A DNA stretch of 64,000 nt from Arthrobacter sp. 260 (GTDB taxonomy: Bacteria > Actinomycetota > Actinomycetes > Actinomycetales > Micrococcaceae). Shown piece after piece: positions 8,407 to 45,803 of the stretch (position 1 is the first letter of the stretch; every line of letters begins with the position of its first letter). The notes beneath the pieces were generated by a model. That model ran no database searches. It saw only the letters and a list, made by a program, of their open reading frames with translations, and was not told the origin of the DNA. The translations under genes and the position numbers were made by a program. The stretch covers positions 124,001-188,000 of the forward strand of contig NZ_JABFOE010000007.1 of assembly GCF_013116745.1 (NCBI RefSeq), given 5' to 3'.

Positions 8407-8510
8407 CCGTGCAGCTTTCCCCAGGTTCTGTGCCCCATGCCGTGTGGCGCCGTGCAACACGCGGGTGGATTCACGACGGCGGCGACAGTACCTGGGGAGA
8501 CTTGCACCCC
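8407..8510. repeat. Dispersed ~104-bp palindromic element, copy A
   Basis: The left arm GTGCAGCTTTCCCCAGGT (8409-8426) and the right arm (8490-8507, reverse complement GTGCAAGTCTCCCCAGGT) are inverted repeats 99 bp end to end. The interior contains GTGCAACACGC, shared in part with copy B. It lies between the ptrB start and the HAAS-gene stop. See copies at 9490, 44643 and 45699. No target duplication is visible. Confidence 0.8.
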
Positions 8511-8519
8511 CGGAGGCTC

Positions 8520-9110
8520 TCAGCTGATCCGGAGCGTGGGGCGGACCACGGGATCGGCACTTCGGGCAGCCCACCAGATGAAGCCGGCCACGGCCAGGCA
8601 TGCACCAACCAACATGGGGATCGCCGGCAGTCGAAGGAACACCACGTCGGGGGTCAGCCCAATTGCGGCTGCTACTGCGAGGGCAATACCCATCCCCAAC
8701 AGCCCGCTTTGCCAGATGGCCCATGAACGCACTATCGCATCCAGATTGACTGAGATGACCACGAGGGCGGCGCACACGACCAGGATCAGGGTGAGCAGGA
8801 CGGCCGTGACCTCGAAGTCTCTGCCAGTGACTACCGGAGTGATCGCGAACGGCAAGACGGTGAAGGCGGCAACGCCGACGGCCCTACCAACCCAGAGCAT
8901 CGCGCCTCCGTTCCGGCGACCCGGCAGGGCGAGGTTCTCGGCGTACTCGTCCGGCGGACCGAAGGCGTCGATAGGACTTTCGCCGGTGTCTTGAAGGTGA
9001 GCCTCGACCGTCGACACGGCGTCGCCAATCAGGTCACCGGGGACGTCCCGCAGCCGCAATTCCACAATGAAGTCCTCCAGCCACTTTCGCTGCTCGTTAC
9101 TGGTGATCAT
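8520..9110 (-). CDS. HAAS-domain membrane protein partner of PadR
   Basis: A 196-residue protein. Residues ~1-60 form a soluble helical segment ('WLEDFIVELRLRDVPGDLIGDAVSTVEAHLQDTGESPIDAFGPPDEYAENL') of the HAAS/DUF1700 type, in which an 'FG.P.eyA..L' motif is usual. Four hydrophobic segments follow (around residues 72-92, 100-120, 130-150 and 158-178). Its start lies 14 bp inside the end of padR, so the two are co-translated. HAAS proteins paired with PadR regulators are thought to signal envelope stress at the membrane; no enzyme motif is visible. The pair is bracketed by two copies of the dispersed palindrome. Confidence 0.75.
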   Translation of the reverse strand: MITSNEQRKWLEDFIVELRLRDVPGDLIGDAVSTVEAHLQDTGESPIDAFGPPDEYAENLALPGRRNGGAMLWVGRAVGVAAFTVLPFAITPVVTGRDFEVTAVLLTLILVVCAALVVISVNLDAIVRSWAIWQSGLLGMGIALAVAAAIGLTPDVVFLRLPAIPMLVGACLAVAGFIWWAARSADPVVRPTLRIS

Positions 9111-9444
9111 TTGGGGCTCCGTTCAGGTGGGTCAGGGTCTGGGTGGTGAAGGCTTGCCAGTCGGTGGTTTGTTGGGCCAGTTCGGCCCGGCCGGCATCGG
9201 TGAGTGAGAAGTACTTGCGGCCGGGGCCGCCGTCACCCGCCCGCCACTCGGTGGTGACGAGTTGGGCAGACTCGAATCGGGTCAGCAGCGGATACAGGGT
9301 CCCTCCCTTGATGGAGCCCAGTCCCGCTTCCTCCAGGGCTGCGGCAATCGCGTAGCCGTACGTGGGGCCGGACTCAAGGACCTTGAGCACACTCATCCCG
9401 AGGACGCCGCGCATCCACTCGCTGGGCCATTGTCTATCGCTCAT
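9097..9444 (-). CDS. PadR family transcriptional regulator
   Basis: A 115-residue winged-helix protein. 'VLGMSVLKVLESGPTYGYAIAAALEEAGL' followed by 'IKGGTLYPLLTRFESAQLV' and 'GRKYFSLTDAGRAEL' is the PadR signature, with the wing at about residues 65-80. PadR proteins dimerise through C-terminal helices and repress their own operon. A short inverted repeat TAGTT-N5-AACTA (9452-9466), 8 bp before the start, is a possible autoregulatory site. The gene overlaps the downstream HAAS membrane-protein gene. The effector is unknown; a role in paa control is unlikely because paaA carries its own PaaR-type site. Confidence 0.85.
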   Translation of the reverse strand: MSDRQWPSEWMRGVLGMSVLKVLESGPTYGYAIAAALEEAGLGSIKGGTLYPLLTRFESAQLVTTEWRAGDGGPGRKYFSLTDAGRAELAQQTTDWQAFTTQTLTHLNGAPNDHQ

Positions 9445-9489
9445 GACTACATAGTTGCACTAACTAGTCAGACTGTCTACCTAGCTATC

Positions 9490-9592
9490 CCGTGCAGCAT
9501 TCCCCACCTTCCCGTCGTGAAAGTGCGCGCGAGGCGCAACACGCCGCTGGTGTGGCCGTCGCCGCGTCAGTACCTGGGGGAACCTGCACGGC
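9490..9592. repeat. Dispersed ~104-bp palindromic element, copy B
   Basis: The left arm GTGCAGCATTCCCCACCT (from 9492) and the right arm ACCTGGGGGAACCTGCAC (9572-9589) are inverted, 98 bp end to end. The interior has GCGCAACACGC, resembling copy A. It sits between padR and the PaaR operator of paaA; this is a divergent region, so a pure terminator role does not fit. Confidence 0.8.
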
Positions 9593-9633
9593 AGGAGGGG
9601 CGATGGTTGACTGTCCGGCGGCCGTCCCGATAT

Positions 9634-9651
9634 CCTGAACGAACGGTCGGT
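9634..9651. promoter_or_regulatory. PaaR-type operator 3 (paaABCDE promoter)
   Basis: CCTGAACGAACGGTCGGT matches the consensus ACCGAACG-N2-CGTTCGGT at 13 of 16 fixed positions. It lies 56 bp before the paaA start, nearly the same distance as operator 1 before paaZ (58 bp). Confidence 0.7.
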
Positions 9652-9706
9652 AATTAACCTGCGGCCGACATCGCGTACTTCTGACGCTCACAGTGAGGTG
9701 ACCACC

Positions 9707-10708
9707 ATGGCAACAGCACCAGCAGTTGACCAGATGCCGGCCGAATCAGCCACCGAGACCGAAGAGGAGCGCGCCGGACGCGAACAGTTCGAGCGCCTCA
9801 TCAGCGAGGATTCACGGATCGAACCCCGCGACTGGATGCCCGAGGCCTACCGGAAGACCCTTGCCCGGCAGATTTCCCAGCACGCACACTCCGAGATCAT
9901 CGGCATGCAGCCCGAAGCCAACTGGATTTCCCGCGCACCGTCACTGAAGCGCAAGGCCATCCTCATGGCCAAGGTCCAGGACGAGGCTGGCCACGGCCTG
10001 TACCTCTACTCGGCTGCTGAAACCCTCGGTACCCCCCGGGACAAGATGACCGAAGACCTGATCGCCGGCAAAGCCCGCTATTCAAGCATCTTCAACTACC
10101 CCGCCGTCACTTGGGCGGACATGGGGGCCATCGGCTGGCTCGTCGACGGCGCCGCGATCGCCAACCAGGTGCCCCTCTGCCGGGCGTCCTACGGCCCCTA
10201 CGGCCGCGCCATGGTCCGGATCTGCAAGGAGGAATCCTTCCACCAGCGCCAGGGGTTCGAGATCCTGCTGGAACTCGCGAACGGCACTCCCGCCCAGAAA
10301 GAAATGGCCCAGGACGCCGTCAACCGCTGGTACGCCCCCTCGCTGATGATGTTCGGCCCGCCCGACGACGATTCGCCCAACTCCAAGCAGTCGATGGCCT
10401 GGAACATCAAGCGGTTCTCCAACGACGAGCTCCGCTCACGCTTCGTCGGCATGATGGTGGAGCAGGTCAAGGTCCTCGGCCTGACCCTGCCCGATGACCA
10501 GATCCGGTTCGACGAGGACACCCAGCAGTGGGAGCACGCCCCGCTCGACTGGAACGAGTTCAAGGAAGTCCTCGCCGGCAGGGGACCCTGCAACGCCCAG
10601 CGGATGGAACGCCGTCGTGAAGCCCACGAGGACGGCGCCTGGGTGCGCGAAGCAGCGGCAGCCTACGCCGACAAGCGGGCCACAGCAGCACAGCAGAAGG
10701 CGGCCTAG
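9707..10708 (+). CDS. paaA: 1,2-phenylacetyl-CoA epoxidase, catalytic subunit PaaA
   Basis: A 333-residue ferritin-like di-iron oxygenase. The iron-binding E-x2-H pairs are visible as '[12 protein letters not shown]' and '[12 protein letters not shown]', with '[16 protein letters not shown]' in between as expected for PaaA. Together with PaaB, PaaC and PaaE it inserts one oxygen atom into the ring of phenylacetyl-CoA to give the 1,2-epoxide. The ATG at 9707 is preferred over the GTG at 9698 because a GAGGTG ribosome site lies 6 bp before it. It opens the paaABCDE operon (10709 follows with no gap) under a PaaR-type operator. Confidence 0.96.
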
Positions 10709-11056
10709 ATGACCGGCGGTTCAACCACAGGCGACGACGGTTCGGCGGCACCAGCCCCGGCAGCTCCCGAGAAGCGCCAGCCCTGGCCGCTGTGGGAGGT
10801 CTTCGTTAGGTCTTCCCGCGGTCTCTCGCACGTCCACGCTGGGTCCCTGCACGCGCCCGACGCCGAGATGGCCGTCCGGAACGCCCGGGACCTGTATACC
10901 CGGCGCAACGAGGGCGTGAGCCTGTGGGTGGTGCCAGCGTCGTCGATCATCACCAGCGACCCCGACGCCAAGGGGCAGTTCTTCGAGTCCCCGCAGGGCA
11001 AGGACTACCGGCATGCGACCTACTACACCAAGAGCGACGGGGTGAAGCACCTGTGA
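10709..11056 (+). CDS. paaB: 1,2-phenylacetyl-CoA epoxidase subunit PaaB
   Basis: A 115-residue protein with the PaaB core 'WEVFVRSSRGLSHVHAGSLHAPDAEMAVRNARDLYTRRNEGVSLWVV'. The first ~28 residues are a Pro/Ala-rich lead not usual in shorter homologues. PaaB has no cofactor and bridges PaaA-PaaC pairs in the multicomponent oxygenase. It starts directly after the paaA stop (TAGATG), and its stop overlaps the GTG start of paaC (GTGA). Confidence 0.93.
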   Translation: MTGGSTTGDDGSAAPAPAAPEKRQPWPLWEVFVRSSRGLSHVHAGSLHAPDAEMAVRNARDLYTRRNEGVSLWVVPASSIITSDPDAKGQFFESPQGKDYRHATYYTKSDGVKHL

Positions 11057-11877
11057 GCGAATCCAACGCCAGCGCCACCCGGATTACCCCCGGCAACGCT
11101 CTGCGCCCTGAAGACATCGCCGCCGCGGACCTGCGGCCGAGCGCCGACGTCGCCGAGTATGCGTTGCGCCTCGGCGACGACTCGCTGATCCTCTCCCAGC
11201 GGCTCGGCTGGTGGATCTCGCGGGCACCGGAGCTGGAAGAGGACGTGGCCCTGGGCAACATCGCCCTGGACCTGATCGGCCACGCACGGTCTTTCCTCAG
11301 CTACGCCGGCCACGGCCTGGACAAGACCGAGGATGATCTGGCCTACTTCCGGCGCGAACCGGAGTTCCGCTGCGCTCACCTGTTTGTGCAGCCCAACGGC
11401 GATTTTGCCCGCACCATCGCTCGCCAGTTGGTGGTCTCGCACTACCAGTTCGAGCTCTACTCACGGCTGATGCACTCGACCGACGCCACCCTCGCGGCCA
11501 TCGCAGCGAAGGCCGTCAAGGAAGTCGACTACCACCGCGACCACAGCAGCCAGTGGGTGCTGCGCCTGGCCCTGGGCACCGACGAATCCCGCCGCCGCAT
11601 GATCGCCGGACTGAAACTGACCTGGCCCTACGTGGAGGAACTCTTTGTCGACGACCAGCTCATCGATACCCTCGGTGAGGCTGCGGTCCGCCCGAGCACC
11701 CTCCGGGCTCCGTTCGATTCCCTGATCAGCGCATTGTTCGCCGAGGCCGACCTGGATATCCCCGCGGTGCCAGGAGCGGTCGGTGGCGGACGTGCCGGCA
11801 AGCACAGCGAACACCTCGGCTACCTGCTCGCCGAAATGCAGGTGCTCGCCCGCGAGCATCCCGGCGCCACCTGGTAA
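11053..11877 (+). CDS. paaC: 1,2-phenylacetyl-CoA epoxidase subunit PaaC
   Basis: A 274-residue ferritin-fold partner of PaaA. 'DDSLILSQRLGWWISRAPELEEDVALGNIALDLIGHARSFL' and 'LFVQPNGDFARTIARQLVVSHYQFELY' are typical PaaC segments, and 'KEVDYHRDHSSQWVLRLALGTDES' follows. In the complex it forms the stable AC heterodimer and lacks the productive di-iron site. The GTG at 11053, which overlaps the paaB stop by four bases, was chosen because the conserved region begins at residue ~25 and upstream codons lie in paaB. Confidence 0.94.
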   Translation: MSESNASATRITPGNALRPEDIAAADLRPSADVAEYALRLGDDSLILSQRLGWWISRAPELEEDVALGNIALDLIGHARSFLSYAGHGLDKTEDDLAYFRREPEFRCAHLFVQPNGDFARTIARQLVVSHYQFELYSRLMHSTDATLAAIAAKAVKEVDYHRDHSSQWVLRLALGTDESRRRMIAGLKLTWPYVEELFVDDQLIDTLGEAAVRPSTLRAPFDSLISALFAEADLDIPAVPGAVGGGRAGKHSEHLGYLLAEMQVLAREHPGATW

Positions 11878-11891
11878 CGGCGGGTGCAGGC

Positions 11892-12431
11892 ATGAGCATC
11901 GACGCGTCTTCAGTGGACACCAGTACCAACACCGCGCACCGGCTTGTTGACGCCGAGTCCGCCCGGATCTGGGATATCGCCGCCACCGTGGTGGACCCCG
12001 AGATCCCGGTCCTCACCATCGAGGATCTGGGCATCCTGCGCCAGGCAACGCTCGACGGCGACGGCGCCGTCACGGTGACCATCACGCCCACCTACTCGGG
12101 CTGCCCCGCCATGGACGCGATCCGGGATGACGTCACGAGCGCCCTCGCCGGACACGGCTACAGTGATGTCCGGGTGCGGCTCACGCTCGCTCCGGCCTGG
12201 ACCACCGACTGGATGACCAGCGCCGGCAAAGCCAAATTGGACGAGTACGGCATTGCCCCGCCCGCCGGCCTCGCTGCGGCGGGACCCATCCGGGTGGGAC
12301 TCAGCGTGAAGTGCCCGCAGTGTTCCTCCCTCAATACCCGCGAACTCACCCGCTTCGGTTCCACCTCCTGCAAGGCGCTCTATGTGTGCCAGGACTGCAA
12401 GGAACCCTTCGACTACTTCAAGGTGCTCTAG
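11892..12431 (+). CDS. paaD: PaaD, maturation factor of the phenylacetyl-CoA epoxidase
   Basis: A 179-residue protein with an N-terminal DUF59/MIP18-type domain ('VVDPEIPVLTIEDLGILRQ', 'PTYSGCPAMDAI') of the iron-sulfur assembly family. The C-terminal zinc ribbon has CPQC (about residues 143-146) and CQDC (about 170-173) pairs and ends in the PaaD-typical 'CKEPFDYFKVL'. Its partners are expected to be the oxygenase centres or the PaaE cluster. It lies 14 bp after paaC and directly abuts paaE (TAGATG). Confidence 0.93.
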   Translation: MSIDASSVDTSTNTAHRLVDAESARIWDIAATVVDPEIPVLTIEDLGILRQATLDGDGAVTVTITPTYSGCPAMDAIRDDVTSALAGHGYSDVRVRLTLAPAWTTDWMTSAGKAKLDEYGIAPPAGLAAAGPIRVGLSVKCPQCSSLNTRELTRFGSTSCKALYVCQDCKEPFDYFKVL

Positions 12432-13604
12432 ATGGCAGTCAAGCTTGCCCCGTCCACCCAGCGACGCACAGCCTTCAACGAGCTCATCGTCGCCGAGGTC
12501 CGGCGGCTCACCGGCGACGCCGTCGAGGTCACCTTCGCCGTCCCCGACCACCTGGCTGGCAAGTACAACTACCTGCCGGGCCAGTACGTCGCGTTGCGCA
12601 CCACCCTTGACGTCGACGGCTCACCCGTCGAGGTGCGCCGCAGCTATTCGATCTGCGCCGAGCCTGTTCCGGGGGAGATCCGGGTGGCGATCAAGAAGGA
12701 TCTTGGCGGCGTGTTCTCCAGCTGGGCGAACGAATCGCTGAAAGCAGGCGACCGGCTCGACGTCATGAGCCCGATGGGCCAGTTCATCTCCAAGCATGAA
12801 ATGAACGAGCTCAACCGGCCTGAGCACCTTCAGCAGAACCTCACCGTCGCGGGGGAGTCCACCTTCGTCGCGGTGGCCGCGGGTTCCGGCATCACGCCGG
12901 TAATCGCTATTGCCCGGACGGTGCTGGCCGCCAACGATTTTGTGCGCTTTGACCTGATCTATGCGAATAAGGCAGCGATGGATGTGATGTTCCTCGAAGA
13001 GCTCGCTGATCTCAAGGACCGTTACCCCGCCCGGTTTGCCCTGCACCATGTGCTGTCCCGAGAACAACGGATTTCCCCGTTGCTCAGTGGCCGGATCGAC
13101 GCTGACAAACTGGAAAAGCTGCTCGGCACCGTTATCCGGACCGACGACGTCGACGAGTGGTTCCTCTGCGGACCCTTCGAACTCGTGCAGCTGTGCCGCG
13201 ACACCCTGGCGGAGCGCGGTGTGGCGCCGGAGAAGATCCGGTTCGAGCTTTTCTCGACCGGCGAGCCCACCCGGCCGGAAGGGCAGATCGGCCGTCCGGT
13301 CCGCGCTGACGACGGCGGCGAGAATTACACCATCTCCTTCAACCTCGACGGGCTGCAGGGCAAGGTTGCCAGCCCCACCCATGCCCGGGAGTCAATTCTC
13401 AACGCGGCACTGCGCGTACGCCCCGATGTACCGTTCGCCTGCGCCGGCGGTGTCTGTGGCACCTGCCGCGCGAAACTGGTCTCCGGCACCGTGGAGATGG
13501 AAGAGAACTACGCGCTGGAGCCGGACGAGATCGAGAAGGGCTACGTGCTCACCTGCCAGTCCCGTCCCACCAGCGACACCGTCTCGGTGGACTACGACGC
13601 CTGA
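12432..13604 (+). CDS. paaE: 1,2-phenylacetyl-CoA epoxidase reductase subunit PaaE
   Basis: A 390-residue electron donor. Residues ~20-120 form the FAD domain with the flavin motif 'RRSYSICAEP', ~130-250 the NADP-binding domain ('AAGSGITPVIAIAR', 'WFLCGPFELVQ'), and ~300-390 a plant-type [2Fe-2S] ferredoxin domain with cysteines in 'CAGGVCGTC' and 'LTCQSRP'. It passes electrons from NADPH to the PaaA di-iron centre. It is the last gene of paaABCDE. After it comes 108 bp of AT-richer sequence before the DUF4397 gene, which appears to be a separate unit. Confidence 0.95.
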   Translation: MAVKLAPSTQRRTAFNELIVAEVRRLTGDAVEVTFAVPDHLAGKYNYLPGQYVALRTTLDVDGSPVEVRRSYSICAEPVPGEIRVAIKKDLGGVFSSWANESLKAGDRLDVMSPMGQFISKHEMNELNRPEHLQQNLTVAGESTFVAVAAGSGITPVIAIARTVLAANDFVRFDLIYANKAAMDVMFLEELADLKDRYPARFALHHVLSREQRISPLLSGRIDADKLEKLLGTVIRTDDVDEWFLCGPFELVQLCRDTLAERGVAPEKIRFELFSTGEPTRPEGQIGRPVRADDGGENYTISFNLDGLQGKVASPTHARESILNAALRVRPDVPFACAGGVCGTCRAKLVSGTVEMEENYALEPDEIEKGYVLTCQSRPTSDTVSVDYDA

Positions 13605-13712
13605 CCTTTTTCACAGAAATATTCATGCTCCTGCATCCAAAGTGCCGCCACCGACGGTAGTACCGGTGTAAGCATCAGTTGGAGGCCCCCTGGGCCCGAG
13701 TGAGGAGCAAAA

Positions 13713-14534
13713 ATGCGAAAGAGCCTTTACGCAGTAGGAGCAGTAGCAGTTCTCGGCGCTGCTTCAGTCGCAGCACCGGCAGTAGCCACCGAAACCGGTG
13801 ACACGGCCTCATTGTCAGTCCTTCACGCTGTCCCCGACCTGACGGTCGACGTCTACGTCAACGGTGACCTGACCCTCGACGATTTCACCCCCGGCGAGCT
13901 GGCTGGTCCCCTTGAACTTCCAGCCGGCGACTACGAGTTGGCGGTGACGGCCTCCGACGCCGCTGACGCCAGCGAACCAGTCATCGGCCCTGTGGCTGTG
14001 ACGTTGGCAGCGGGCGGCAACTACACGGCCACCGCCAACCTCGACGCTGAAGGCGCCCCCACAGCAAACTTCTATACGAACGATGTCTCTGCTGTGGAGG
14101 CTGGCCAGTCCCGGCTGACCGTCCGCCACACCGCGGCTGCCCCAGCGGTCGACGTCCTCGCCGGCGATGCGGTGGTGGTGGAGAACCTCAGCAATCCTGA
14201 CGAGGCGACCCTGACCACCGACCCTGGCACCATCTCGGCCTCCGTGGCGGCCACCGGGACCACCGACCCTGTGATCGGCCCGGCTGACCTGACCCTCGGC
14301 GAAGGCACCGCAACCATCGTCTACGCCTGGGGAAGCCTCGAAGACGGCAACCTTGCCCTCGCCACCCAGGTGATCGAGGGACTCCACTCCGACCCTGCAG
14401 CGGTCCCCGGCGCACAGGCCGGCCCAGCGCAGGACAACACCGCAGCGATCCTCGGAGCAGGCGCCCTCGGCCTCGTGCTCCTCTCGGGAGCAGCTGTCGC
14501 CGCCCGGGTGCGTACCGCCCGCGCCGGCAAATAA
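13713..14534 (+). CDS. DUF4397-domain secreted surface protein with C-terminal membrane anchor
   Basis: A 273-residue protein. A Sec signal (residues 1-26, ending 'APAVA-TE') is followed by two DUF4397-type beta domains: 'LSVLHAVPDLTVDVYVNGDLT...LPAGDYELAVTASD' and 'LTVRHTAAAPAVDVLAGDAVV'. The tail has a hydrophobic segment and a basic end. No LPXTG is present; the anchor reads '...ILGAGALGLVLLSGAAVAARVRTARAGK', and its LVLLSGAAV matches the surface protein at 53690-54670, which also precedes a class F sortase. It is probably exported and held at the membrane or attached by the neighbouring sortase. The ATG is preceded by GAGGAG at normal spacing. A GCATCC at 13633 with GGTAGT 17 bp later is a weak ECF-like promoter candidate. 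Confidence 0.8.
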   Translation: MRKSLYAVGAVAVLGAASVAAPAVATETGDTASLSVLHAVPDLTVDVYVNGDLTLDDFTPGELAGPLELPAGDYELAVTASDAADASEPVIGPVAVTLAAGGNYTATANLDAEGAPTANFYTNDVSAVEAGQSRLTVRHTAAAPAVDVLAGDAVVVENLSNPDEATLTTDPGTISASVAATGTTDPVIGPADLTLGEGTATIVYAWGSLEDGNLALATQVIEGLHSDPAAVPGAQAGPAQDNTAAILGAGALGLVLLSGAAVAARVRTARAGK

Positions 14535-14540
14535 ACCAGT

Positions 14541-14583
14541 GTGGGCAGGGTGGGGGCCCCCTCTCGCTCCTTACCCTGCCCAC
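14541..14583 (+). terminator. Stem-loop between the DUF4397 gene and the sortase gene
   Basis: A perfect 11-bp stem GTGGGCAGGGT / ACCCTGCCCAC encloses an inner GGGGGCCCCC palindrome. It begins 6 bp after the DUF4397 stop. With no U tract it may stabilise the upstream message or attenuate read-through, giving more surface protein than sortase. Confidence 0.6.
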
Positions 14584-14616
14584 CTGTCTACCCACCCCCG
14601 ACGAAAGACCCACTCC

Positions 14617-15333
14617 TTGCCGCATAAGTCCCTCCGTCTGACCGCAGTGGCCCTGGCTGCCTCACTTGGTTTGTTAGCTGGTGGGTGCGCAACCTCCGCA
14701 AGCCAGGCGGAGCCGGCGACGATCGTCGAACGATCAACGCCGCTGGCGACCATCGAGGCGCCGGACCTGCCGGAGAGCGGCACCACCGCCCAGGAAGCGA
14801 CCGGACCCGACGCACCGGCTGAGGAACCAGCCGACGACGGCGCGCCGAGCGTCCCCGTCCGTCCGGCCACTGGAGCGCTGGCAGAAGCCACGCCCCGTCC
14901 CGTCTCGCTCGACATTGCCGGCACCGACATCTCCGTCGATGTGATCGACGTGGGCATCGCGAGCGACAACGAAATGGAAATCCCCGACAGCTTCTACGAG
15001 GCGGGGTGGTACCGGTACGGCCCCGCGCCGGGCGCCTCCGCGGGCAACGCAGTCCTCGCCGCGCACATCGACATTGGGACCGAGGTCATGCCCTTCACCC
15101 AGCTGAAGGACGTCCCACTCGGCACCATCATCACTGTCGGACGCGAGAACGCGGAGCCGGTGCAGTACCGGGTCACCGACGTCAGGCATGTTCCGAAGGC
15201 AACCCTCGACACCTCCCAGATCTTCCAGCGCGATGGCGAACACCGGCTGATGATTCTCACCTGCGGAGGGGACTGGCTAGTAGACAAGGATGATTATGAG
15301 GATAATGTTGTGCTGACGGCCTCCCCGCTCTGA
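14617..15333 (+). CDS. Class F sortase, lipoprotein-like
   Basis: About 238 residues. The N-terminus has a basic start, a hydrophobic stretch and a lipobox LLAGGC with Cys ~24. A Pro/Ala-rich linker leads to a sortase domain: 'GNAVLAAHIDIG' holds the catalytic His and 'LMILTCGGDW' the Cys, ending in 'YEDNVVLTA', where many class F enzymes have YRDNVV. It should join a sorting signal to an amine acceptor outside the membrane; the likely substrate is the DUF4397 protein next to it. The TTG at 14617 was chosen because the longer GTG start (14539) would place the 14541-14583 hairpin inside the coding sequence and spoil the signal peptide. Confidence 0.78.
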   Translation: MPHKSLRLTAVALAASLGLLAGGCATSASQAEPATIVERSTPLATIEAPDLPESGTTAQEATGPDAPAEEPADDGAPSVPVRPATGALAEATPRPVSLDIAGTDISVDVIDVGIASDNEMEIPDSFYEAGWYRYGPAPGASAGNAVLAAHIDIGTEVMPFTQLKDVPLGTIITVGRENAEPVQYRVTDVRHVPKATLDTSQIFQRDGEHRLMILTCGGDWLVDKDDYEDNVVLTASPL

Positions 15334-15420
15334 ACGGTCCATGCACGCAGCGACCGGTCAGCAGCGCGGATGCCATTTCAGGGGGCACCAGGGACGCGGC
15401 CGCGCCGTAAGGAGAGTAGT

Positions 15421-16765: not shown

Positions 16766-16839
16766 ACCCAGGGCCCCGGCGGGGTTCGGGTGGGCGGTCA
16801 CCGCTAGGCTGGAATCCACCCGAGAGGAAGGCGCTGACC

Positions 16840-20347: not shown

Positions 20348-20360
20348 TGACTTTTACTTG

Positions 20361-20458: not shown

Positions 20459-20501
20459 GATCCTTTGTGGTCCCACATAGCAGTCGCAAAAGTCCCGCAG
20501 G

Positions 20502-34049: not shown

Positions 34050-34126
34050 CAACCCCTCGCCAGTAGCTCCAGGCCATCCCGATTCAGGTGGCTCTGGGGC
34101 TGATGGGGTTGTGTGAGGATGGAGGC

Positions 34127-35839: not shown

Positions 35840-35882
35840 CCGGACGGCGTCGCCTGCCAGAGGAGAGGGCGCCGGATCAGAC

Positions 35883-37295: not shown

Positions 37296-37380
37296 GAGGA
37301 TTCCCGCTGTAGGTGGGTCAGATGGACTTATCGTCCCACGCGTTCGGGTCCGCCGCTAGGGGCCCGGCACGCGGGCCGGG

Positions 37381-38145: not shown

Positions 38146-38939
38146 CGCCCTCTCTTGTTGTGTCGTTCGAGCTTGGCCACCAGTTGGGTGAGCGGCAAGG
38201 TAATGATCAGGTAAAGCAGGGCGGCGAGCACCAGCGGGGTTGCGTTGGCGGAAGAGGACACCATGTCGCGGGCGAAGGTGGTCAGCTCGCGGTCGCCCAG
38301 TGCCATGCCGGCGATGAACAGCAAGGAAGTGTCCTTGATGAGAATGACCAGTTCATTGGTCAGCGGTGGGGTGATGATCCTGAACGCCTGTGGGAGGACC
38401 ACGGAGATCATGGTCCAGGAGGGGTGCATCCCGAGGGACCGTGCAGCCTCCACCTGGCCCGGTGGGACTGCCTCGATTCCGGCGCGGATGGTCTCGGCGA
38501 TGTAGGCGGAGGAGACGATGATCAGGGCAATCAGGCCAGCGCCTGCGCTGCCGCCCGGGGGCCGCCACCCGAAGGCGATGGGTACCGCGAAGGCAAACCC
38601 AAAGATCACCAACAGTGCCGGCAGGCCACGGAACAGCTCAATGTAGGCGGTGGCAGCCCAGCGGTAGGGCAACACTGGGGAAAGCTTCATCAGTGCCAGG
38701 ATCAGCCCGAGCAGAAGTCCGCCGACGAAAGCAATTGCCGTATACAGGACGGTGTTCTTCGCAGCGACCGTGAGGATCTCGGGGAACGCCTCAATAGCGA
38801 CATCCACATCGAAGAAGTTGCTTCGGATTGCCCCCCAGTCAGCGAGCGCGACGACGACGGCGACGGCGAGGATGAAGAGTGCATACAGTGCGCCGCGGGT
38901 GAGGCGTCTGCGGGTTGAGCGTTTCACTTTGGGAGCCAA
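38142..38939 (-). CDS. Polar amino acid ABC transporter, permease
   Basis: A 265-residue membrane protein with an N-terminal basic lead and about five membrane segments. The EAA loop that contacts the ATPase is visible as '[41 protein letters not shown]', typical of the HisM/GlnP family, and '[13 protein letters not shown]' is the family mark before it. One permease gene implies a homodimer in the membrane. Its gene begins 24 bp past the stem-loop that separates it from the binding-protein gene. Confidence 0.92.
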
Positions 38940-38962
38940 TCTCTCTCAGAAGACTTACGAAA

Positions 38963-39011
38963 CGGAACCCGCCACGGCTGCGCTGGAGAAGTGCTGCCGT
39001 GGCGGGTTCCG
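38963..39011 (-). terminator. Perfect 16-bp stem-loop between binding-protein and permease genes
   Basis: CGGAACCCGCCACGGC (38963-38978) pairs perfectly with GCCGTGGCGGGTTCCG (38996-39011) across a 17-nt loop. On the minus strand it follows the binding-protein stop by 11 bp and has no U tract. Such stems usually protect the binding-protein message and let only part of transcription continue into permease and ATPase. Confidence 0.7.
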
Positions 39012-39022
39012 GACCAGGGTTT

Positions 39023-39817
39023 CTACTCCGAGAAGTAGGTGTTGTAAATCTCGTCGTATTCGCCGTTGTCCCGCAGTTCGGCGAGCTGCTCGTTGACGGC
39101 GGCCAGCAGCTCCTCGCTGCCTTCCTTGGTGGTCGCGAAGCCGTACTGCTCATCGGTCTCGAACTCGGCGGCGATCGTGTAGGTGCCGTCCTCAGTGTGG
39201 GCGAGGTTCACCGGGAGGTCCTGAAGAATCGCCGCAACATTTCCTGCCTGCAGTGCTGAGTACAGCTCGGCGTCGCTCGGGAAGGCCACCACCTCGGTGT
39301 CAGCGGGGACGTTCTCGCGGGTGTAGGTCTCACCGGTGGTTCCAGCCTGCACACCGACGGACTCGCCAGCCAGATCGTCGATCGAGGCAACCTCGGAATC
39401 GACAGGTACCAGCAGTGACTGCAGTGAGTCGTAGTAGGGCTCGGTGAACGCAAGATTCTCCGCGCGTTCCTCGGTGATCGTGATAGCGCTCGCTCCGATG
39501 TCGCACTGACCGGCGGACAGCACTGCACCACTGGCGAGGCCGTCGAAGCCAACGTCGACTACCTCAAGCTCGAGGTCCATGCCGGTGGCGATAGCGCGCA
39601 TCAGGTCCATGTCGAAGCCCACGTACTCGCCGTCTTCTTCATATTCGAAGGGTGCGTACGGGATGTCCGAGCACACGGTGAGGGAGCCTTCGGCGACCAG
39701 GCCGAGGCCTGACTCGTCGGCAGCTGGCTCATCGGAGCCGCCACAGGCGCTGAGGGCCAGCGCGCCGATCGCGGCAATGGCTAGGGTTTTGGGAACTGCT
39801 GAGCGCTTGGCAAACAT
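39023..39817 (-). CDS. Amino acid ABC transporter, solute-binding lipoprotein
   Basis: A 264-residue protein with signal and lipobox ALSACGG (Cys ~25), then a bacterial extracellular solute-binding domain family 3 fold. 'LTVCSDIPYAPFEYEEDGEYVGFDMDLMRAIA' is the classical opening, with 'CDIGASAITITEERAENLAFTEPYYDSLQSLLV' in the middle. It captures a polar amino acid (glutamine, glutamate or arginine type) outside the membrane and hands it to the permease. It is the first gene of the operon. Confidence 0.92.
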   Translation of the reverse strand: MFAKRSAVPKTLAIAAIGALALSACGGSDEPAADESGLGLVAEGSLTVCSDIPYAPFEYEEDGEYVGFDMDLMRAIATGMDLELEVVDVGFDGLASGAVLSAGQCDIGASAITITEERAENLAFTEPYYDSLQSLLVPVDSEVASIDDLAGESVGVQAGTTGETYTRENVPADTEVVAFPSDAELYSALQAGNVAAILQDLPVNLAHTEDGTYTIAAEFETDEQYGFATTKEGSEELLAAVNEQLAELRDNGEYDEIYNTYFSE

Positions 39818-39962
39818 ACAACTACCTCTTTTGTGGACGGGAAAAACTTCGTTTCACAGTGTAGTCGCATCGAGATGTGCATCACAGGCTACAACTATTG
39901 CGTATAGGTAACCATGAGGTTTCGCTCACCTACCTGAAACTCCGACGAGGAAGTAGTTGATG

Positions 39963-41303
39963 CTAGCGGCGAATGCCCAGCGCCTCGATCATGGGCCGGA
40001 ATTTGCTCCAGGATTCCGCCAGCTCTGCGGCAGCATTGGAGGCCGCGACGATCCCGCACCCCGCATACATCCGCACCCGGGTGGGGCTCTCGATCACAGC
40101 TCCACGGAGCGCGATGCCCCACTCCCCATTGCCGCGGGCGTCCATCCAGCCGACGGGTCCGGCGTAGGGCCCACGCTCAAGGTGTTCCAATTCGCGGATC
40201 AACGCACCCGCCACCGTAGTGGGGGTGCCGCAAACGGCGGCGGTGGGGTGCAGTGCACCGACCAGGGCCAACGACGTCGGCACGCTCCCATCGGCCCCAG
40301 GTTCCAGCTCAGCTGTGACATCGGAAGCCAGGTGCCAGACGTTCGGGAGTTCCAGCACGAAGGGCTCACTGTGCGAGGTCATCGAGCTGGTGAACGGTTC
40401 CAGTTGCTGGGTCAGCGAGTCGATTGCAATCTGGTGCTCATGGAGTTGTTTAGTTGAACCGGCCAGGACCCGCTGTGCGTAGTCCGGGTCATCCGCCGGC
40501 GCGTTGTTGCGGTCAAGTGTGCCTGCCAGTACCCGGGCACGCGCCGTCGAGTTCTCCACCTTGATCAGCATTTCCGGGGTCGAACCGATCAGTCCGTCCA
40601 CCGAATAGGTCCAGCAGTCGGAATACCTCACGGCCAACTCACGCAGCACCTGGGCCGTGGCCACCGGGGACCCGAGTTCTGCCACGACATCGCGGGCGAG
40701 TACCAGCTTGCTCAGTTCGCCGGACCTGATGTGCTCGATACCCTGCTCGACCGCGGTCATCCACTGCTCCTCGGAGAGGATCCCTGACGTGAGCCGGTCC
40801 GCAGCGTCGGGAATCCGTTCAAGGGCGGTTTCGTCCAGATACTCGGCCAGCGCTGCCTCGGCTGCCGCCCCGCTCAGCTCCGCGTCGGCGTCGTCGGTGA
40901 TGTAGGTGAGCCAGCTGTGGCCGTCACGGCAGCCAACCACAATCCGCGGCACGATCAGCCGGGACGGATGCCCCGAGGTCTTCGAGAAGGCGAATGAGCC
41001 GAAGGCCACCAGTCCGGAACCGGGGACGCTGAGCGGATTTACGACGTCGGCTGCGGCGAGTTCGGTGCGCCACCACTCCTGGGCCTCGGCAAACCGGCCC
41101 GGTCCCGTCGCGGTAAACCGGGCGGTCTCGCCGAACGCGACCAGCCCGTCGCCGCGGCGGACCCAGGTATGAACGTCGTTCCGCACCACGTAGTCCAGGA
41201 GTCCGGTGCTGTCGTCGAGCTGTCCCCGCTCGATGGTGATGCTGCGGAGGCCGTGCGCTGGTGTCAGCGGCGGCGCGACCGCGATGGGGGACGGGGTGCT
41301 CAT
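39963..41303 (-). CDS. menF: Isochorismate synthase
   Basis: About 446 residues, the length of MenF/EntC. The chorismate-binding domain occupies the C-terminal ~260 residues with 'SGELSKLVLARDVVAEL', 'STPEMLIKVEN', 'VLAGTLDRNN', 'HEHQIAIDSLTQQLEPF', 'ELPNVWHLASDVTAEL', 'VGALHPTAAVCGTP' and 'YAGPVGWMDARGNGEWGIALRGAVI', the ordered motifs of isochorismate synthases. It makes isochorismate for MenD. ATG 41303 was chosen because sequence further upstream lies in the promoter of the divergent menG. The menF-menG intergenic region is about 118 bp. Confidence 0.92.
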   Translation of the reverse strand: MSTPSPIAVAPPLTPAHGLRSITIERGQLDDSTGLLDYVVRNDVHTWVRRGDGLVAFGETARFTATGPGRFAEAQEWWRTELAAADVVNPLSVPGSGLVAFGSFAFSKTSGHPSRLIVPRIVVGCRDGHSWLTYITDDADAELSGAAAEAALAEYLDETALERIPDAADRLTSGILSEEQWMTAVEQGIEHIRSGELSKLVLARDVVAELGSPVATAQVLRELAVRYSDCWTYSVDGLIGSTPEMLIKVENSTARARVLAGTLDRNNAPADDPDYAQRVLAGSTKQLHEHQIAIDSLTQQLEPFTSSMTSHSEPFVLELPNVWHLASDVTAELEPGADGSVPTSLALVGALHPTAAVCGTPTTVAGALIRELEHLERGPYAGPVGWMDARGNGEWGIALRGAVIESPTRVRMYAGCGIVAASNAAAELAESWSKFRPMIEALGIRR

Positions 41304-41421
41304 GATTTCCAAGCCTACTCTTGCCCGGGAGCGGGTCCGTCTGGTCAGGGTAGGCGACGATGGCAGCCGGTCGTATGGACGATTGATTAGGGACCTGTCA
41401 ATTGTTTGAGACAATGAAGGG

Positions 41422-42180
41422 GTGAACCGTGCATCACTGGAAAAGCGTCCCGAAGAAGTAGCAGCCATGTTTGACGACGTGGCGCCCAAATACGACGTCG
41501 TCAACGACGTCCTGTCCCTCGGGCAGACCCACCGCTGGCGCCGCATTGTGGTGGAGGCAGTGGGTGCTGTGAAGGGCCAGCGGGTCCTCGACCTTGCGGC
41601 GGGCACCGGCACCTCCAGCGAGCCGTACGCTGACAATGGTGTGTATGTGGTGGCGTGTGATTTCTCTCTCGGCATGCTGCGGGTGGGGAAACGCCGCCGC
41701 CCGGACATCGACTTCATCGCCGGGGACGCCACCGACCTCCCGTTCGCCGATGACTCCTTCGACGCAACGACCATCTCTTTCGGGTTGCGCAATGTGCACC
41801 GCCCGCAGCTGGCGCTCGCCGAGATGCTCCGCGTCACCAAGCCCGGCGGCAAACTGGTCATCGCTGAGTTCTCCCAGCCGACTGTCCCGCTGTGGCGCAC
41901 CATGTACACCGAATACCTGATGCGCGCCCTCCCCGCCATCGCCACGAAGGTCAGTTCGAACCCCACCGCCTACGTATACCTCGCCGAGTCCATCAGGGCC
42001 TGGCCCGACCAGGATGCGCTCGCCGGGTGGCTCACGGATGCCGGCTGGGAGAACGTGGCCTACCGGAACCTGAACGGCGGGATTGTGGCAGTTCACCGGG
42101 CCACCAAGCCACTGGACTCTTCAGCCACAGCACCCGCCCAGGCGCGCATCCGCCGCCGCAGCGCACGGCCAGCCAACTAA
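41422..42180 (+). CDS. menG: Demethylmenaquinone methyltransferase
   Basis: A 252-residue UbiE/MenG methyltransferase. '[31 protein letters not shown]' is the family opening. The SAM-binding motif '[12 protein letters not shown]' comes next, then '[36 protein letters not shown]', a UbiE signature. It performs the last C-methylation of menaquinone. The GTG start has GAAGGGG ahead of it. The gene is followed immediately, with no gap, by the GTG of menJ (TAAGTG). A small ATTGT-N5-ACAAT inverted repeat lies at 41401-41415, right before the start. The C-terminal ~22 residues are a basic tail. Confidence 0.95.
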
Positions 42181-43497
42181 GTGTCGGTCCTGATAGTCGG
42201 GGCTGGCCCCGCCGGGTCGACCGCTGCCTACTACCTGGCCCGTGCCGGGGTGGACGTCACAGTCGTCGAAAAGTCAGTTTTCCCCCGGGAAAAGGTTTGT
42301 GGCGACGGGTTCACCCCCCGCGCGGTGCGTGAAATCCAGCTGCTCGGACTACCGCACGAGGAAACGGCAGGTTGGCGCCGCAACGTGGGGCTCCGGCTCC
42401 GGGCCGGCGGGCGAACGGTCGAGGTGCCCTGGCCAGAACTCACCGACTTTCCCGACTACGGACTGGTCCGCACCCGGCTCGGTTTCGATGAGGAACTGGC
42501 TGAGCACGCCCGCGCCGCCGGAGCGGTCATCCTGGAGGGCCATTCAGTCACTTCAGCCATCCGGGACGACGCCGGACGGGTGACAGGCGTCGTCGTCAAT
42601 ATCCTTGATGCGGCCGGTCGGAAAACAGGGGAGACCCGGAAGTTCCACGCCGACACCGTCCTCGCCGCCGACGGTAACTCGACCCGCACCGCCGTCAGTC
42701 TTGGACTGGCGAAGCGTGATGACCGCCCGCTCGGTGTCGCGGTGCGCACCTACTTCACGTCCCCTCGCCACGAGGACCCGTGGATGGAAGGGTGGCTTGA
42801 GCTGCCCGACGCCACCGGCCGCCCGCTGCCTGGCTACGGCTGGGTGTTCGGTGTGGGGGATGGGACCTCCAACGTGGGCCTCGGAATCCTGAACTCGTCG
42901 GCCGAGTTCGGGAAGATCGACTACAAGCAGGTCCTGAAGGACTGGACTGCCGGGATGCCCCCGGAATGGGGCTTTGTCCCCGAGCAGCAGGTAGGGGAGA
43001 TCCGTGGGGCCGCTCTGCCGATGGGCTTCAACCGGACTCCTCACTACAGCCCCGGAATGTTGCTGCTGGGCGACGCCGGGGGAATGGTGTCCCCGTTCAA
43101 CGGTGAAGGCATTTCCTATGCGATGGAGTCGGCCCGCTACGCCGCCGAGTTCATCATCAATGCCGAGCAGGTCCGCTCACCCCTCGGCCGGGACCAGGTA
43201 CTGGCCGGTTATGCGCCCCACCTCCGGGGTTTGTGGGGCAGCCACTTCACCCTCGGCACCATTTTCGCGCAGCTTATTGGTAAGCCAGCCATCCTGCGGT
43301 TGGCCCTCCGGACCGGAATGCCCATTCCGGTGCTGATGCGCTTCGTTGTGCGCATGCTCGCGAACCTGACTGACACCGGCGGCAAGGGTTTCGAGGACCG
43401 CGTCATTCACTTGCTGGAGCAGCTGGTGCCTGCCGTCAGCAACCAATCCCATTCACGCACGCGGACGCATGCCAGCTCCGCGCGCTCTACTAGTTAG
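42181..43497 (+). CDS. menJ: Geranylgeranyl-reductase family flavoprotein, probable menaquinone reductase MenJ
   Basis: A 438-residue FAD protein. 'VLIVGAGPAGSTAAYYLARAGVDVTVVEK' is the dinucleotide-binding fold, 'FPREKVCGDGFTPRAV' is the family-specific PxxKxCGxG motif, and 'LLLGDAGGMVSPFNGEGISYAMES' is the second flavin motif. In actinobacteria this family saturates one isoprene unit of menaquinone (MenJ); a role on geranylgeranyl lipids is the alternative. Its place directly between menG and the polyprenyl synthase strongly supports MenJ. Confidence 0.88.
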   Translation: MSVLIVGAGPAGSTAAYYLARAGVDVTVVEKSVFPREKVCGDGFTPRAVREIQLLGLPHEETAGWRRNVGLRLRAGGRTVEVPWPELTDFPDYGLVRTRLGFDEELAEHARAAGAVILEGHSVTSAIRDDAGRVTGVVVNILDAAGRKTGETRKFHADTVLAADGNSTRTAVSLGLAKRDDRPLGVAVRTYFTSPRHEDPWMEGWLELPDATGRPLPGYGWVFGVGDGTSNVGLGILNSSAEFGKIDYKQVLKDWTAGMPPEWGFVPEQQVGEIRGAALPMGFNRTPHYSPGMLLLGDAGGMVSPFNGEGISYAMESARYAAEFIINAEQVRSPLGRDQVLAGYAPHLRGLWGSHFTLGTIFAQLIGKPAILRLALRTGMPIPVLMRFVVRMLANLTDTGGKGFEDRVIHLLEQLVPAVSNQSHSRTRTHASSARSTS

Positions 43498-43506
43498 TCT
43501 TAGACA

Positions 43507-44610
43507 GTGACTGAATCTGCGAACCCCGGCTGGACCAGCGCTGGTCACCCGCGCTCCGACAGCGCCGAGCTCGATACTGCCACCGGGGCCATCGCCACCG
43601 GCCTGCGGCTCCCGCCCGGTTTCGCCCTGATCGCCGACGATCCCGACCTGGGTCCGGCAGTCTCCACCTGTCTCGCGAAGGTGGAAAAGCAGCTGCGTGA
43701 AGCGATCGCCAGCTCCGACCCGCTGGCAGACGCCACCAGCCGTCACCTGGTCGAAGCCGGTGGCAAACGGATCCGGCCGCTGCTGACCATCCTCGCTTCC
43801 CACCTCGGCGATTCCAGCCGCCCCGAGGTGGTCCAGGCCGCCGTCGTCGTCGAACTGACCCACCTGGCCACGCTCTATCACGACGACGTCATGGACTCTG
43901 CCCCCTACCGCCGCGGCGCCCCGACGGCGCACGAGGTGTGGGGGAACTCGGTCGCCATCCTGACCGGTGACCTGATCTTCGCCCGCGCCTCAATCCTGGT
44001 ATCGGAGCTGGGTGGCCAGGCGCTCGGGATCCAGGCGCGTACCTTTGAGCGGCTCTGCCTGGGCCAGCTGCATGAGACGGTGGGCCCTCGCGAGGATGAA
44101 GACCCCGTGGAGCACTACCTCTCGGTAATTGCCGACAAGACCGGTTCCTTGGTGGCCGCGTCAGGCCAGCTGGGTGCCCTGTTTGGTGAGGCGCCGCAGT
44201 CGGCGATCGACGTCATGCTCGCCTATGGTGAGCGGGTCGGCGTGGCTTTCCAGCTGGCCGACGACGTCATCGACGTCACGGGCGTCAAGGTCACCTCGGG
44301 CAAGTCGCCCGGCACCGACCTGCGCGAAGGCGTGCCGACCCTGCCTGTCCTGCTGATCCGGCAGGCCGCGTCCCGTGGGGATGCCTCTGCCGTGGCCGTG
44401 CTGGACCTGGTGGATGGGGACCTCACCTCGGACGAGGCGCTTGCCACTGCCGTCGCCGCAGTCAGCGGCCACCCGGCCACCCAGGAAGCCTGGGCGGTAG
44501 CTCACCAGTGGGCCGACGACGCCGTCGCTGCCCTCGAGCCACTGCCCGAAAGCATCGTCAAGCAGGCACTGACCGCGTTTGCGCAGGCAGTGGTCACCCG
44601 GGACGTCTAG
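43507..44610 (+). CDS. Polyprenyl diphosphate synthase for the menaquinone side chain
   Basis: A 367-residue trans-prenyltransferase. The first aspartate-rich motif is DDVMD in 'LYHDDVMDSAPYRRG' and the second DDVID in 'LADDVIDVTG'. 'VEAGGKRIRPLLTILAS' is the substrate-binding opening and 'GKSPGTDLREGVPTLPVLL' follows the second motif. It elongates isoprenyl diphosphates to a long-chain product (C35-C45), probably the menaquinone tail, in view of the adjacent men genes. The N-terminal ~45 residues are not conserved. The GTG start lies 9 bp after menJ. The downstream region begins with palindrome copy C. Confidence 0.92.
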   Translation: MTESANPGWTSAGHPRSDSAELDTATGAIATGLRLPPGFALIADDPDLGPAVSTCLAKVEKQLREAIASSDPLADATSRHLVEAGGKRIRPLLTILASHLGDSSRPEVVQAAVVVELTHLATLYHDDVMDSAPYRRGAPTAHEVWGNSVAILTGDLIFARASILVSELGGQALGIQARTFERLCLGQLHETVGPREDEDPVEHYLSVIADKTGSLVAASGQLGALFGEAPQSAIDVMLAYGERVGVAFQLADDVIDVTGVKVTSGKSPGTDLREGVPTLPVLLIRQAASRGDASAVAVLDLVDGDLTSDEALATAVAAVSGHPATQEAWAVAHQWADDAVAALEPLPESIVKQALTAFAQAVVTRDV

Positions 44611-44642
44611 TCCTTTCCTGTTCCCGCGCCAGATCCCTGCCG

Positions 44643-44746
44643 GCGTGCACGTTTCCCCACGTTCTTTGTCCAGCAGGGCCACGTCGACGGCGTGTCTCCC
44701 GCCGCCACGGGGTCTGCTGCCCGGTAGGTGGGGAAACCTGCACGGC
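44643..44746. repeat. Dispersed ~104-bp palindromic element, copy C
   Basis: The left arm GTGCACGTTTCCCCACGT (44645-44662) and the right arm with GGGGAAACCTGCAC (44730-44743) are inverted, 99 bp end to end. The interior holds CAGCAG and CTGCTG arms and the palindrome CGTCGACG, so the element can fold further. It lies between the polyprenyl synthase and the DUF559 gene. Confidence 0.82.
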
Positions 44747-44870
44747 TCCCGATGCGGCGGGCTTTGTCTTCACCTCCCCAGCCGTCCTCCGTCGACGCTT
44801 CTTGGTGAAGCTGCCCACATAAGGGCAGTCGGGCGACCGCAGACCGGAGGGAATCGGGTGCACTGTCCGG

Positions 44871-45695
44871 ATGGATACCATCGCCACCCTCAGGGGTCTG
44901 GGGTCGGTCGCCCGCTGCAGCGAGGTGCTAAGACGAGGTCCGACCCGCCGCCAGATTGACCGCCATGTGGCACGCGGTGAGATTCGCCGACTCCGCCCGG
45001 GGGTAATAGCCCTGCCCGACGCGCGCCCCGACTATGTGGCGGCCGTCCTCAACAACGGTCGGCTGACCTGTGTTTCCGCTGCGGGGGCCTACGACCTGTG
45101 GACGATTTCTCCAGCGACCACCCTGCACCTGAGTTGCCGACATGGACATGGCGGCGGATACACGAACCACCGGGTGCAAACCGTCCCACCCCATCCACGG
45201 GTGCCGCTGGTGGGAGTGGTGGACGTGCTGATCCACGCATTGAGATGCCTTCCACCGCTGGAAGCCGCCGTCATGGTCGAGTGCGCACTCCGTCGTGGCG
45301 ACACGGTCCGGAGCTTCCTGCTGGATCAGCTACCGGGGGACCGGAACGGCACTGCCCGGGCGGTAGTGGACCTCGTGACCTGTACGGCCGAGTCTCCCCT
45401 GGAGGTGGTGGCACGGATCCTGTTCATGAATGCGGGATTCCACGTCGAAACCCAGGTACCGCTGACCGGCGTCGGAAGGGTTGACTTCCTGCTGGAGGGC
45501 TTCCTGGTGGTTGAAGTGGACGGGGCCGCCTACCACTCCGACCGCCGCGCCTTGAGGCGAGACCTCCGGCGAAACAACGCGGTCATGGTGGGTGGGTATC
45601 TCGTCCTCCGGTACAGCTACGAGGACATCATGTTCCACCCCGACGAGGTGCTGTGGGAGATCCGTCAGGTCTTTTCAGGCCGCGTGATCCGCTGA
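44871..45695 (+). CDS. DUF559 (Vsr-like nuclease fold) protein with N-terminal helix-turn-helix region
   Basis: A 274-residue protein. The N-terminus (about 1-55) has 'GLGSVARCSEVLRRGPTRRQIDRHVARGEIRRLRPGVIALP', like the antitoxin-type winged helix of AbiEi-like and DUF559 proteins. The C-terminal ~100 residues carry the DUF559 restriction-fold core: 'ESPLEVVARILFMNAGF', 'VGRVDFLLEGFLVVEVDGAAYHSDRRALRRDLRRNNAVMVGGYLVLRYSYEDIM', with an E..DF..E.DG pattern like the metal site of Vsr-type nucleases. Function unknown; a DNA nuclease or a regulator is possible. It is bracketed by two copies of the 99-bp palindrome (C upstream, D downstream). An upstream hairpin CTGCCC-N6-GGGCAG (44811-44828) precedes it. 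Confidence 0.72.
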   Translation: MDTIATLRGLGSVARCSEVLRRGPTRRQIDRHVARGEIRRLRPGVIALPDARPDYVAAVLNNGRLTCVSAAGAYDLWTISPATTLHLSCRHGHGGGYTNHRVQTVPPHPRVPLVGVVDVLIHALRCLPPLEAAVMVECALRRGDTVRSFLLDQLPGDRNGTARAVVDLVTCTAESPLEVVARILFMNAGFHVETQVPLTGVGRVDFLLEGFLVVEVDGAAYHSDRRALRRDLRRNNAVMVGGYLVLRYSYEDIMFHPDEVLWEIRQVFSGRVIR

Positions 45696-45698
45696 CCC

Positions 45699-45803
45699 GC
45701 GTGCAGGTTTCCCCAGGTACTGGCCCGGATCCGGGCCGCAGACCGGTGTGTCGGCCGCGGACACGCAGATGATGCTTCACAACCTGGGGAAACCTGCACA
45801 GGC
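45699..45803. repeat. Dispersed ~104-bp palindromic element, copy D
   Basis: The left arm GTGCAGGTTTCCCCAGGT (45701-45718) and the right arm ACCTGGGGAAACCTGCAC (45782-45799) are exact inverted repeats over 18 bp, 99 bp end to end; this copy is closest to the family consensus. The interior holds the 16-bp palindrome GGCCCGGATCCGGGCC and a GTGTC/GACAC pair. It lies between converging DUF559 and HIT genes. Confidence 0.85.

Follow-up and report, generated by a model that had tools for sequence, protein, structure and literature searches.

Two pairs of palindromes of nearly identical length enclose genes in a 64,000-nucleotide stretch of the Arthrobacter sp. 260 genome (assembly GCF_013116745.1, contig NZ_JABFOE010000007.1, positions 124,001 to 188,000; here called the window), and the question they raise is what these elements are and what keeps them alike. 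We conclude that they are very probably the cognate DNA elements of a family of DUF559 proteins, one member of which is encoded between the second pair. The source genome (G000 in our labels, in which C and L denote contigs and loci) comprises 3.9 Mb in 193 contigs, with the window at C172:124001-188000. The four elements and the DUF559 gene are located in the window as follows.

8409 to 8507, minus strand: element A, 99 bp, with arms at 8486-8507 and 8409-8430 and an inner repeat at about 8440-8464.
9492 to 9589, minus strand: element B, 98 bp, with arms at 9568-9589 and 9492-9513 and an inner repeat at about 9522-9546.
44645 to 44743, plus strand: element C, 99 bp, upstream of the DUF559 gene, with arms at 44645-44666 and 44722-44743 and an inner repeat at about 44688-44712.
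44871 to 45695, plus strand: DUF559 gene, 274 amino acids, with a predicted AbiEi-like N-terminal region and Vsr/I-Bth0305I-like nuclease region (from Pfam, a predicted model, fold search, and homologues).
45701 to 45799, plus strand: element D, 99 bp, downstream of the DUF559 gene, with arms at 45701-45722 and 45778-45799 and an inner repeat at about 45744-45768.

All four palindromes were confirmed within a few bases of the coordinates given in a first-pass annotation of the window, whose account of their length (99, 98, 99, and 99 bp for A to D) and shared ends is borne out, with the 18-base arm exact at both ends of D. That annotation held that the case for a family would be weak if the genome contained only these four copies or if the arms had no fixed spacing. 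The arm occurs 25 times in G000 with three or fewer mismatches (4 for the reversed control), and both arms occur at a spacing of 50 to 80 bp in 4 places (control, 0). A covariance model (E <= 10) made from 12 copies recovers 13 copies of 98 to 99 bp in the 3.9 Mb, plus one chance-level match; 12 of these 13 places were in the model, and C117:275603 was not. The family is therefore larger than four and its spacing fixed, which answers the annotation's own doubt.

When placed in one orientation, 12 copies align almost without gaps and display an internal feature that had been overlooked. From left to right, each element has a first arm of 22 bp (GTGCAGGTTTCCCCAGGTTCTG), about 21 bp of variable spacer, an inner inverted repeat (CGGCGTGTYG N5 CRACACGCCG, which contains GCGTGT N9 ACACGC), some 10 bp of a second variable spacer, and the opposite arm; the second half of the inner repeat is degenerate in element B. 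This inner repeat, or core, is off-centre at fixed distances (about 45 bp from one end and about 33 bp from the other) and so orients every copy; element D has the same direction as element C and the DUF559 gene. Arms and core are kept, whereas the spacers differ freely among copies. The elements have no coding capacity of their own, and single copies yield stable predicted folds.

The main finding concerns the gene between elements C and D, which the first-pass annotation had correctly placed there without recognizing it as the cognate partner of the palindromes. In several Arthrobacter genomes, pairs of elements lie about 1.04 kb apart, and the gene between them, where inspected, is a homologue of the window DUF559 gene. 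The first 24 Arthrobacter genomes contain 22 genes of this clade (at least 49% identity), 19 of which have core-bearing elements on both flanks, and 36 of the 40 flank elements are oriented with the gene. Among the named genomes, a set that overlaps in genomes with the 24, the 21 scanned loci of at least 50% identity have the core on both flanks in 15 cases, on one flank in 2, and on neither in 4 (counting L184, which is partial and 60% identical, as a clade gene without elements); this core is present in 0 of the 29 scanned loci below 50% identity. The module is a putative nuclease gene with a like-oriented element on each side, accompanied by dispersed solo elements.

The core pattern (one mismatch or fewer) has 129 occurrences in the 24 Arthrobacter genomes versus 12 for the reversed control; the corresponding counts for 14 genomes from other families are 11 and 10. 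Of the four genomes that lack a clade gene, G012 has one core and G005, G007, and G013 have none. G019 and G287 have 6 and 8 cores, with a decayed gene between elements at the polyprenyl synthetase-HIT junction. Elsewhere in our survey of the family, other genera with several cores are represented by G041 (5), G192 (8), and G242 (13).

Arms differ completely between gene clades, being GTGCAGGTTTCCCCAGG in G000 and G009, GGCCGGATTCCCCAGG in G002 and G017, GCGGCTTCGTGCACGGC in G006, G008, and G011, and CGTCGTTCC in G018 and G023, while the inner core and its distances are nearly constant across clades whose arms differ. The 63 dispersed elements that we called come from 49 of 52 loci, with L301, L309, and L083 yielding none. 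We compared them with the arms flanking 19 genes, leaving out G020 and two paralogues without the core, and grouped the genomes by hand into eight arm types. For 52 of the 63, the closest resemblance was to gene-flanking arms of the type found in the same genome; 2,000 label shuffles averaged 12.4 such cases and never exceeded 25. One of the models used (R1) was built from own-genome copies, so some arm bias attaches to the dispersed copies of G000, G009, G002, G004, and G017; most of those in G003, G006, G008, G016, and G021 were located through the core, which contains no arm sequence. Arm similarity also follows protein identity (Mantel r = 0.834, 0 of 5,000 permutations, 16 genes), a correlation uncorrected for shared species history. 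Genes at the same chromosomal junction (in G000, G018, and G006) have unlike arms, two genes in G021 have two arm types, and three paralogues in G192 (L369-L371) each have a different one, so that arm type goes with the gene and not with its chromosomal position. Tandem arrays were also seen, of five element copies about 124 bp apart in G006 (L331, 2423-3019) and of three about 119 bp apart in G018 (L109, 2430-2766); several copies in the G006 array combine a left arm of one type with a right arm of another.

The pairing extends beyond Arthrobacter. Flanks of all 80 named DUF559 loci were scanned for any palindrome of 70 to 112 bp, and the match between upstream and downstream arms was scored. 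Matched-arm pairs occur at 60 of the 78 loci with full flanks, compared with 0 of 72 far-flank controls, which fall below the threshold (10.15) by construction since it was taken from their maximum (10.1), and with 17 of 159 swapped pairs, a control that mixes related species. Far flanks are mostly coding; a fairer control is provided by the flanks of other genes in the same named loci, of which 2 of 59 pass. Loci with less than 47% identity pass in 44 of 55 cases. Forty further loci, unnamed and belonging to other genera in the family, form a second set that is independent of the choice of threshold; 21 of them pass, versus 1 of 40 far flanks (8 of 20 in the first batch and 13 of 20 in the second, whose loci were chosen in a core-rich genus). 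Loci that pass are found in, among others, Demequina, Microbacterium, Psychromicrobium, Zhihengliuella, Salinibacterium, and Herbiconiux. We lean, if by a modest measure, toward a class of gene plus palindrome widespread in Micrococcales, in which an AbiEi-Vsr-like nuclease rather than a transposase would spread or maintain its own long palindromes, and in which protein and arms would diversify together so tightly that paralogues of a single genome have private element types. As a separate observation, one half of the inner core (GCGTGTCG) also lies inside palindromes with quite other arms in Demequina and Herbiconiux (L196-L200, L212, and L213); it was not seen in the Microbacterium palindromes inspected.

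The DUF559 protein, whose closest named relatives are from Arthrobacter, is probably an AbiEi-like DNA-binding region fused to a nuclease resembling Vsr and homing endonucleases. Pfam assigns DUF559 and MTES_1575 to 17 of 17 aligned members, AbiEi_4 to 10, and AbiEi_3_N to 7, the only other match in the protein family being a weak one to SAMD1_SHD; for the window protein itself, the MTES_1575 and AbiEi_4 matches fall below the curated cut-offs. Its predicted model (predicted local distance difference test score of 87; predicted template modeling score of 0.82) matches AbiEi of S. agalactiae (6y8q, E of 2e-4) and the catalytic domain of I-Bth0305I (3r3p, E of 3e-4; template modeling score by target of 0.77), followed by the putative endonuclease 3hrl (E of 2e-3) and Vsr (1cw0, E of 0.02), and the predicted DNA-binding part also matches Rv2827c (1zel). 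Residues typical of nucleases (E178, D205, E215, D217, H222, and D231) are the same in all 17 sequences compared, and a recognition helix is predicted around residues 26-34. Neighbors of the gene in the window are a polyprenyl synthetase, a HIT protein, and one unassigned protein. A search of plasmids and phages turned up no close homologue; at a looser limit, remote relatives appear in four plasmid records.

Could the palindromes instead be operators, such that the AbiEi-like protein represses its own gene together with a regulon marked by the solo elements, with the nuclease region incidental? An element lies upstream of the gene in all 19 genes examined, and AbiEi represses its own expression by binding to inverted repeats within its promoter (PMC7319586). 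A second element, however, lies downstream of the gene, and the residues typical of nucleases, although not mapped to an active site, are invariant. Placement is also telling: among 46 elements, the flanking genes are convergent for 21, tandem for 19, and divergent for 2, and the other 4 fall within a called open reading frame (ORF), as judged from a crude gene call based on GC content by codon position and with sites shared by G000 and G009 counted twice. Elements prefer the 3' ends of genes, and the few placements between divergent genes speak against a regulon of operators. We regard this explanation as unlikely.

Still less probable, in our estimation, is a role in defense or self-marking: the nuclease would act against DNA in certain circumstances, with the elements labeling or shielding the host chromosome or modulating the enzyme. 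AbiE is a phage defense system (PMC3985639), and PADLOC returns weak matches of the DUF559 protein to AbiEi and to a large defense nuclease; no toxin gene (AbiEii, DUF1814, included) or methylase gene was found among the scanned window neighbors, however, and about 13 elements in 3.9 Mb are few for a self mark.

Conservation between relatives bears on what remains. Of the nine G000 elements outside the window, eight have an orthologue among ten element loci of G009. Across ten orthologous pairs, identity is 369/430 in arms, 210/250 in the core, 211/307 in spacers, and 593/800 in the immediate flanks (arms plus core versus spacers, Fisher p of 6e-9): the elements are under selection, with arms and core changing at a slower pace than the spacers. 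This agrees with the first-pass proposal of selection on a family of constant length. Its suggestion of selection on a folded structure is not supported, since the arm changes in these pairs are one-sided in 43 cases and two-sided in 2, and the covariation of paired arm positions that it looked to is weak on 12 copies, with pair counts only slightly above those of shuffles. Recognition of duplex DNA by a protein is accordingly favored over that of a folded strand. The argument that termination alone does not explain the copies is upheld.

Two further alternatives are the weakest. Miniature inverted-repeat transposable elements (MITEs), or scars of an ordinary insertion sequence without a present role, would account for terminal inverted repeats, dispersed copies, and lack of coding capacity, but interiors are not homogeneous between copies, arms and core are conserved relative to spacers in orthologous copies, and the partner is a nuclease of another fold; this option is already disfavored, and we hold it to be very improbable. 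Transcribed RNA hairpins or terminators, the least credible of the four, would suit the preference for gene 3' ends and the stable predicted folds of single copies, but nothing in the window matches Rfam at the gathering score, and there are no terminator-like site within the four copies (in a scan allowing loops of 3 to 8 only), little covariation on 12 copies, and almost no compensatory change between orthologues.

The cognate relationship between the palindromes and the DUF559 family thus draws on the association of gene and element, the matching of arms to clade and genome, the fixed geometry, the slow evolution of arms and core, the preference for 3' ends, and the predicted AbiEi-plus-Vsr-like fold. 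A fuller account, which we prefer at somewhat better than even odds, joins this cognate module with arm binding by the protein and nuclease-driven copying or conversion of elements. The AbiEi-like region would bind each 22-bp arm and pair the ends of an element, the nuclease would nick or cut in or near it, and repair of the break would copy elements and at times the whole unit. Alternatively, repair might convert diverged copies back to the cognate arm type and thereby keep a matched population, and solo elements may be what remains after decay of the gene.

In favor of this account, the polyprenyl synthetase-HIT junction is empty, holds a solo element, holds a full unit, or is decayed in different Arthrobacter species. 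Its gap is short in, e.g., G021, G010, G016, and G001; a solo element is present in G023, G002, G319, and G321 (degenerate in G020); the full unit of element, gene, and element is present in, e.g., G000, G009, G006, G008, and G011; and the decayed gene stands between elements in the two genomes noted above. Gaps of about 1.8 to 2.3 kb without a clade gene occur in G007, G012, and G013. In G317, the junction has an additional 10.4-kb gene cluster between two elements (L281, 946-11425), and the same cluster occurs without the nuclease gene in G005 (L282, about 912-11440). It encodes a TRAP transporter (DctPQM), a dehydratase-like protein, an aldehyde dehydrogenase, FAA hydrolases, and a GntR regulator, from which we take it to be catabolic; its position beside elements suggests that they may influence where genes are gained.

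Several results weigh against the account as a whole. Binding, cutting, and movement are inferred from sequence, not observed. That eight of nine elements are common to G000 and G009 means that movement is not recent, and comparisons between genomes yielded no clean insertion edge or target duplication: no target-site duplication is visible in the flanks of the 13 G000 copies, and the element-gene-element unit of G317 is missing from G005, where the edges are untidy. The search for empty sites in relatives yielded no clean event: copy B is absent from G009, but the surrounding bases differ as well. With no sharp-edged insertion found, the direction and mechanism of change have to be inferred. 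On the side of association, the threshold is missed by 18 of the 78 named loci and by 19 of the 40 second-set loci; three of the 22 clade genes lack core-bearing flanks (G020, with a palindrome on one side, and the paralogues G022:C18 and G017:C24); the covariance model still finds two elements in G005, from which the gene is absent; the core pattern is absent from G089, whose gene is 59% identical; and three of the four plasmid relatives (Actinomyces and Tsukamurella), when scanned, had no matched palindrome pair. Own-type matches are low in G006 (2/6) and G021 (2/4), and the Mantel test does not separate out shared species history.

Two genes between elements A and B complete the bracketed features, as the first-pass annotation had placed them.

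8520 to 9110, minus strand: HAAS gene, between elements A and B.
9097 to 9444, minus strand: padR gene, between elements A and B.

Element A, an orthologue of which is present in G009, lies between an S9 peptidase gene and the HAAS gene, and element B lies between the divergent padR and paaA genes. A functional part for padR/HAAS in the system is not supported: G009 has padR without copy B, so their position looks incidental and they are probably passengers. Three further sites deserve mention. The site of the G009 element L299 holds another palindrome in G000 (C183, about 171080-171247, L334; arms GTTTTGGTGAGCAACC and GGTTGCTCACCAAAAC), which may belong to another gene. The C128 element of G000 (L078) is at a synteny break relative to G009, G005, and G317, in none of which the adjacent ORF has a strong match; we presume from its resemblance that this ORF is akin to a solute-binding protein. 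Finally, the otherwise G+C-rich window contains a perfect 18-base A+T-rich inverted repeat with a 9-base loop (60237-60281), perhaps an operator.

The matching of the repeats to the enzyme of each species suggests a kind of gene-plus-repeat system in soil bacteria that has not been described before. We found no description of this pairing of gene and palindrome in the open literature, where papers that mention DUF559 do not appear to deal with palindromes; subscription papers and preprints were mostly outside coverage, and it may have been described elsewhere. DUF559/AbiEi-domain proteins, recurrent in the genomes searched and without an assigned role in the literature examined, thereby gain a testable DNA partner beside each gene, and dozens of natural protein-site pairs mean that a recognition code could be worked out.

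Among known systems, integron attC sites have ends of the form RYYYAAC / GTTRRRY, which the element ends (GTGCAGG / CCTGCAC) do not fit, and any likeness to integron cassettes counts as no more than an observation. MITE copies are alike through the interior, whereas here spacers vary while arms and core hold. By prediction, the nuclease fold resembles that of the Vsr-like (EDxHD) homing endonuclease I-Bth0305I, but a homing endonuclease gene splits its target or sits in an intron, and the gene described here is intergenic with a whole element on each side. The predicted DNA-binding fold is like that of Rv2827c and of the antitoxin AbiEi of the type IV AbiE system; AbiE has an adjacent AbiEii toxin, in contrast to the nuclease fusion and the flanking and dispersed elements found here. 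AbiEi binds two 23-bp inverted repeats (PMC7319586), near in length to the 22-bp arms.

The closest organizational parallel in this comparison is with REPtrons, which unite repetitive extragenic palindromes (REPs) and a RAYT/TnpAREP gene: in both systems, a gene is flanked by palindromes and has cognate dispersed intergenic copies, and in REPtrons, protein and element types have co-evolved (PMC8266576 and PMC3733652). The REPtron partner is a Y1 HUH (tyrosine) transposase, whereas Pfam and fold matches here point to an AbiEi-plus-Vsr-like protein. REPs are defined in PMC3733652 as short palindromes of 20 to 40 bp with an unpaired GTAG or CGTC tag; the present elements are 98 to 99 bp long, with two 22-bp arms and an inner core, number near a dozen per genome (G000), and have no GTAG/CGTC tag at their ends in G000. 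As the partner protein is not a HUH enzyme and the elements are not short tagged REPs, we do not file the system as a REPtron. The same paper describes CGTC-tagged REPs, mostly from alphaproteobacteria and with stems of 8 to 9 bp, as having no dedicated transposase known. They, too, are dispersed palindromes without a known transposase and, unlike the elements described here, have no known partner gene. The present system bears on them, its partner being a nuclease of another fold, and if the wider class proposed above is real, nucleases of this kind might also supply the absent partner for other families of palindromes without a transposase.

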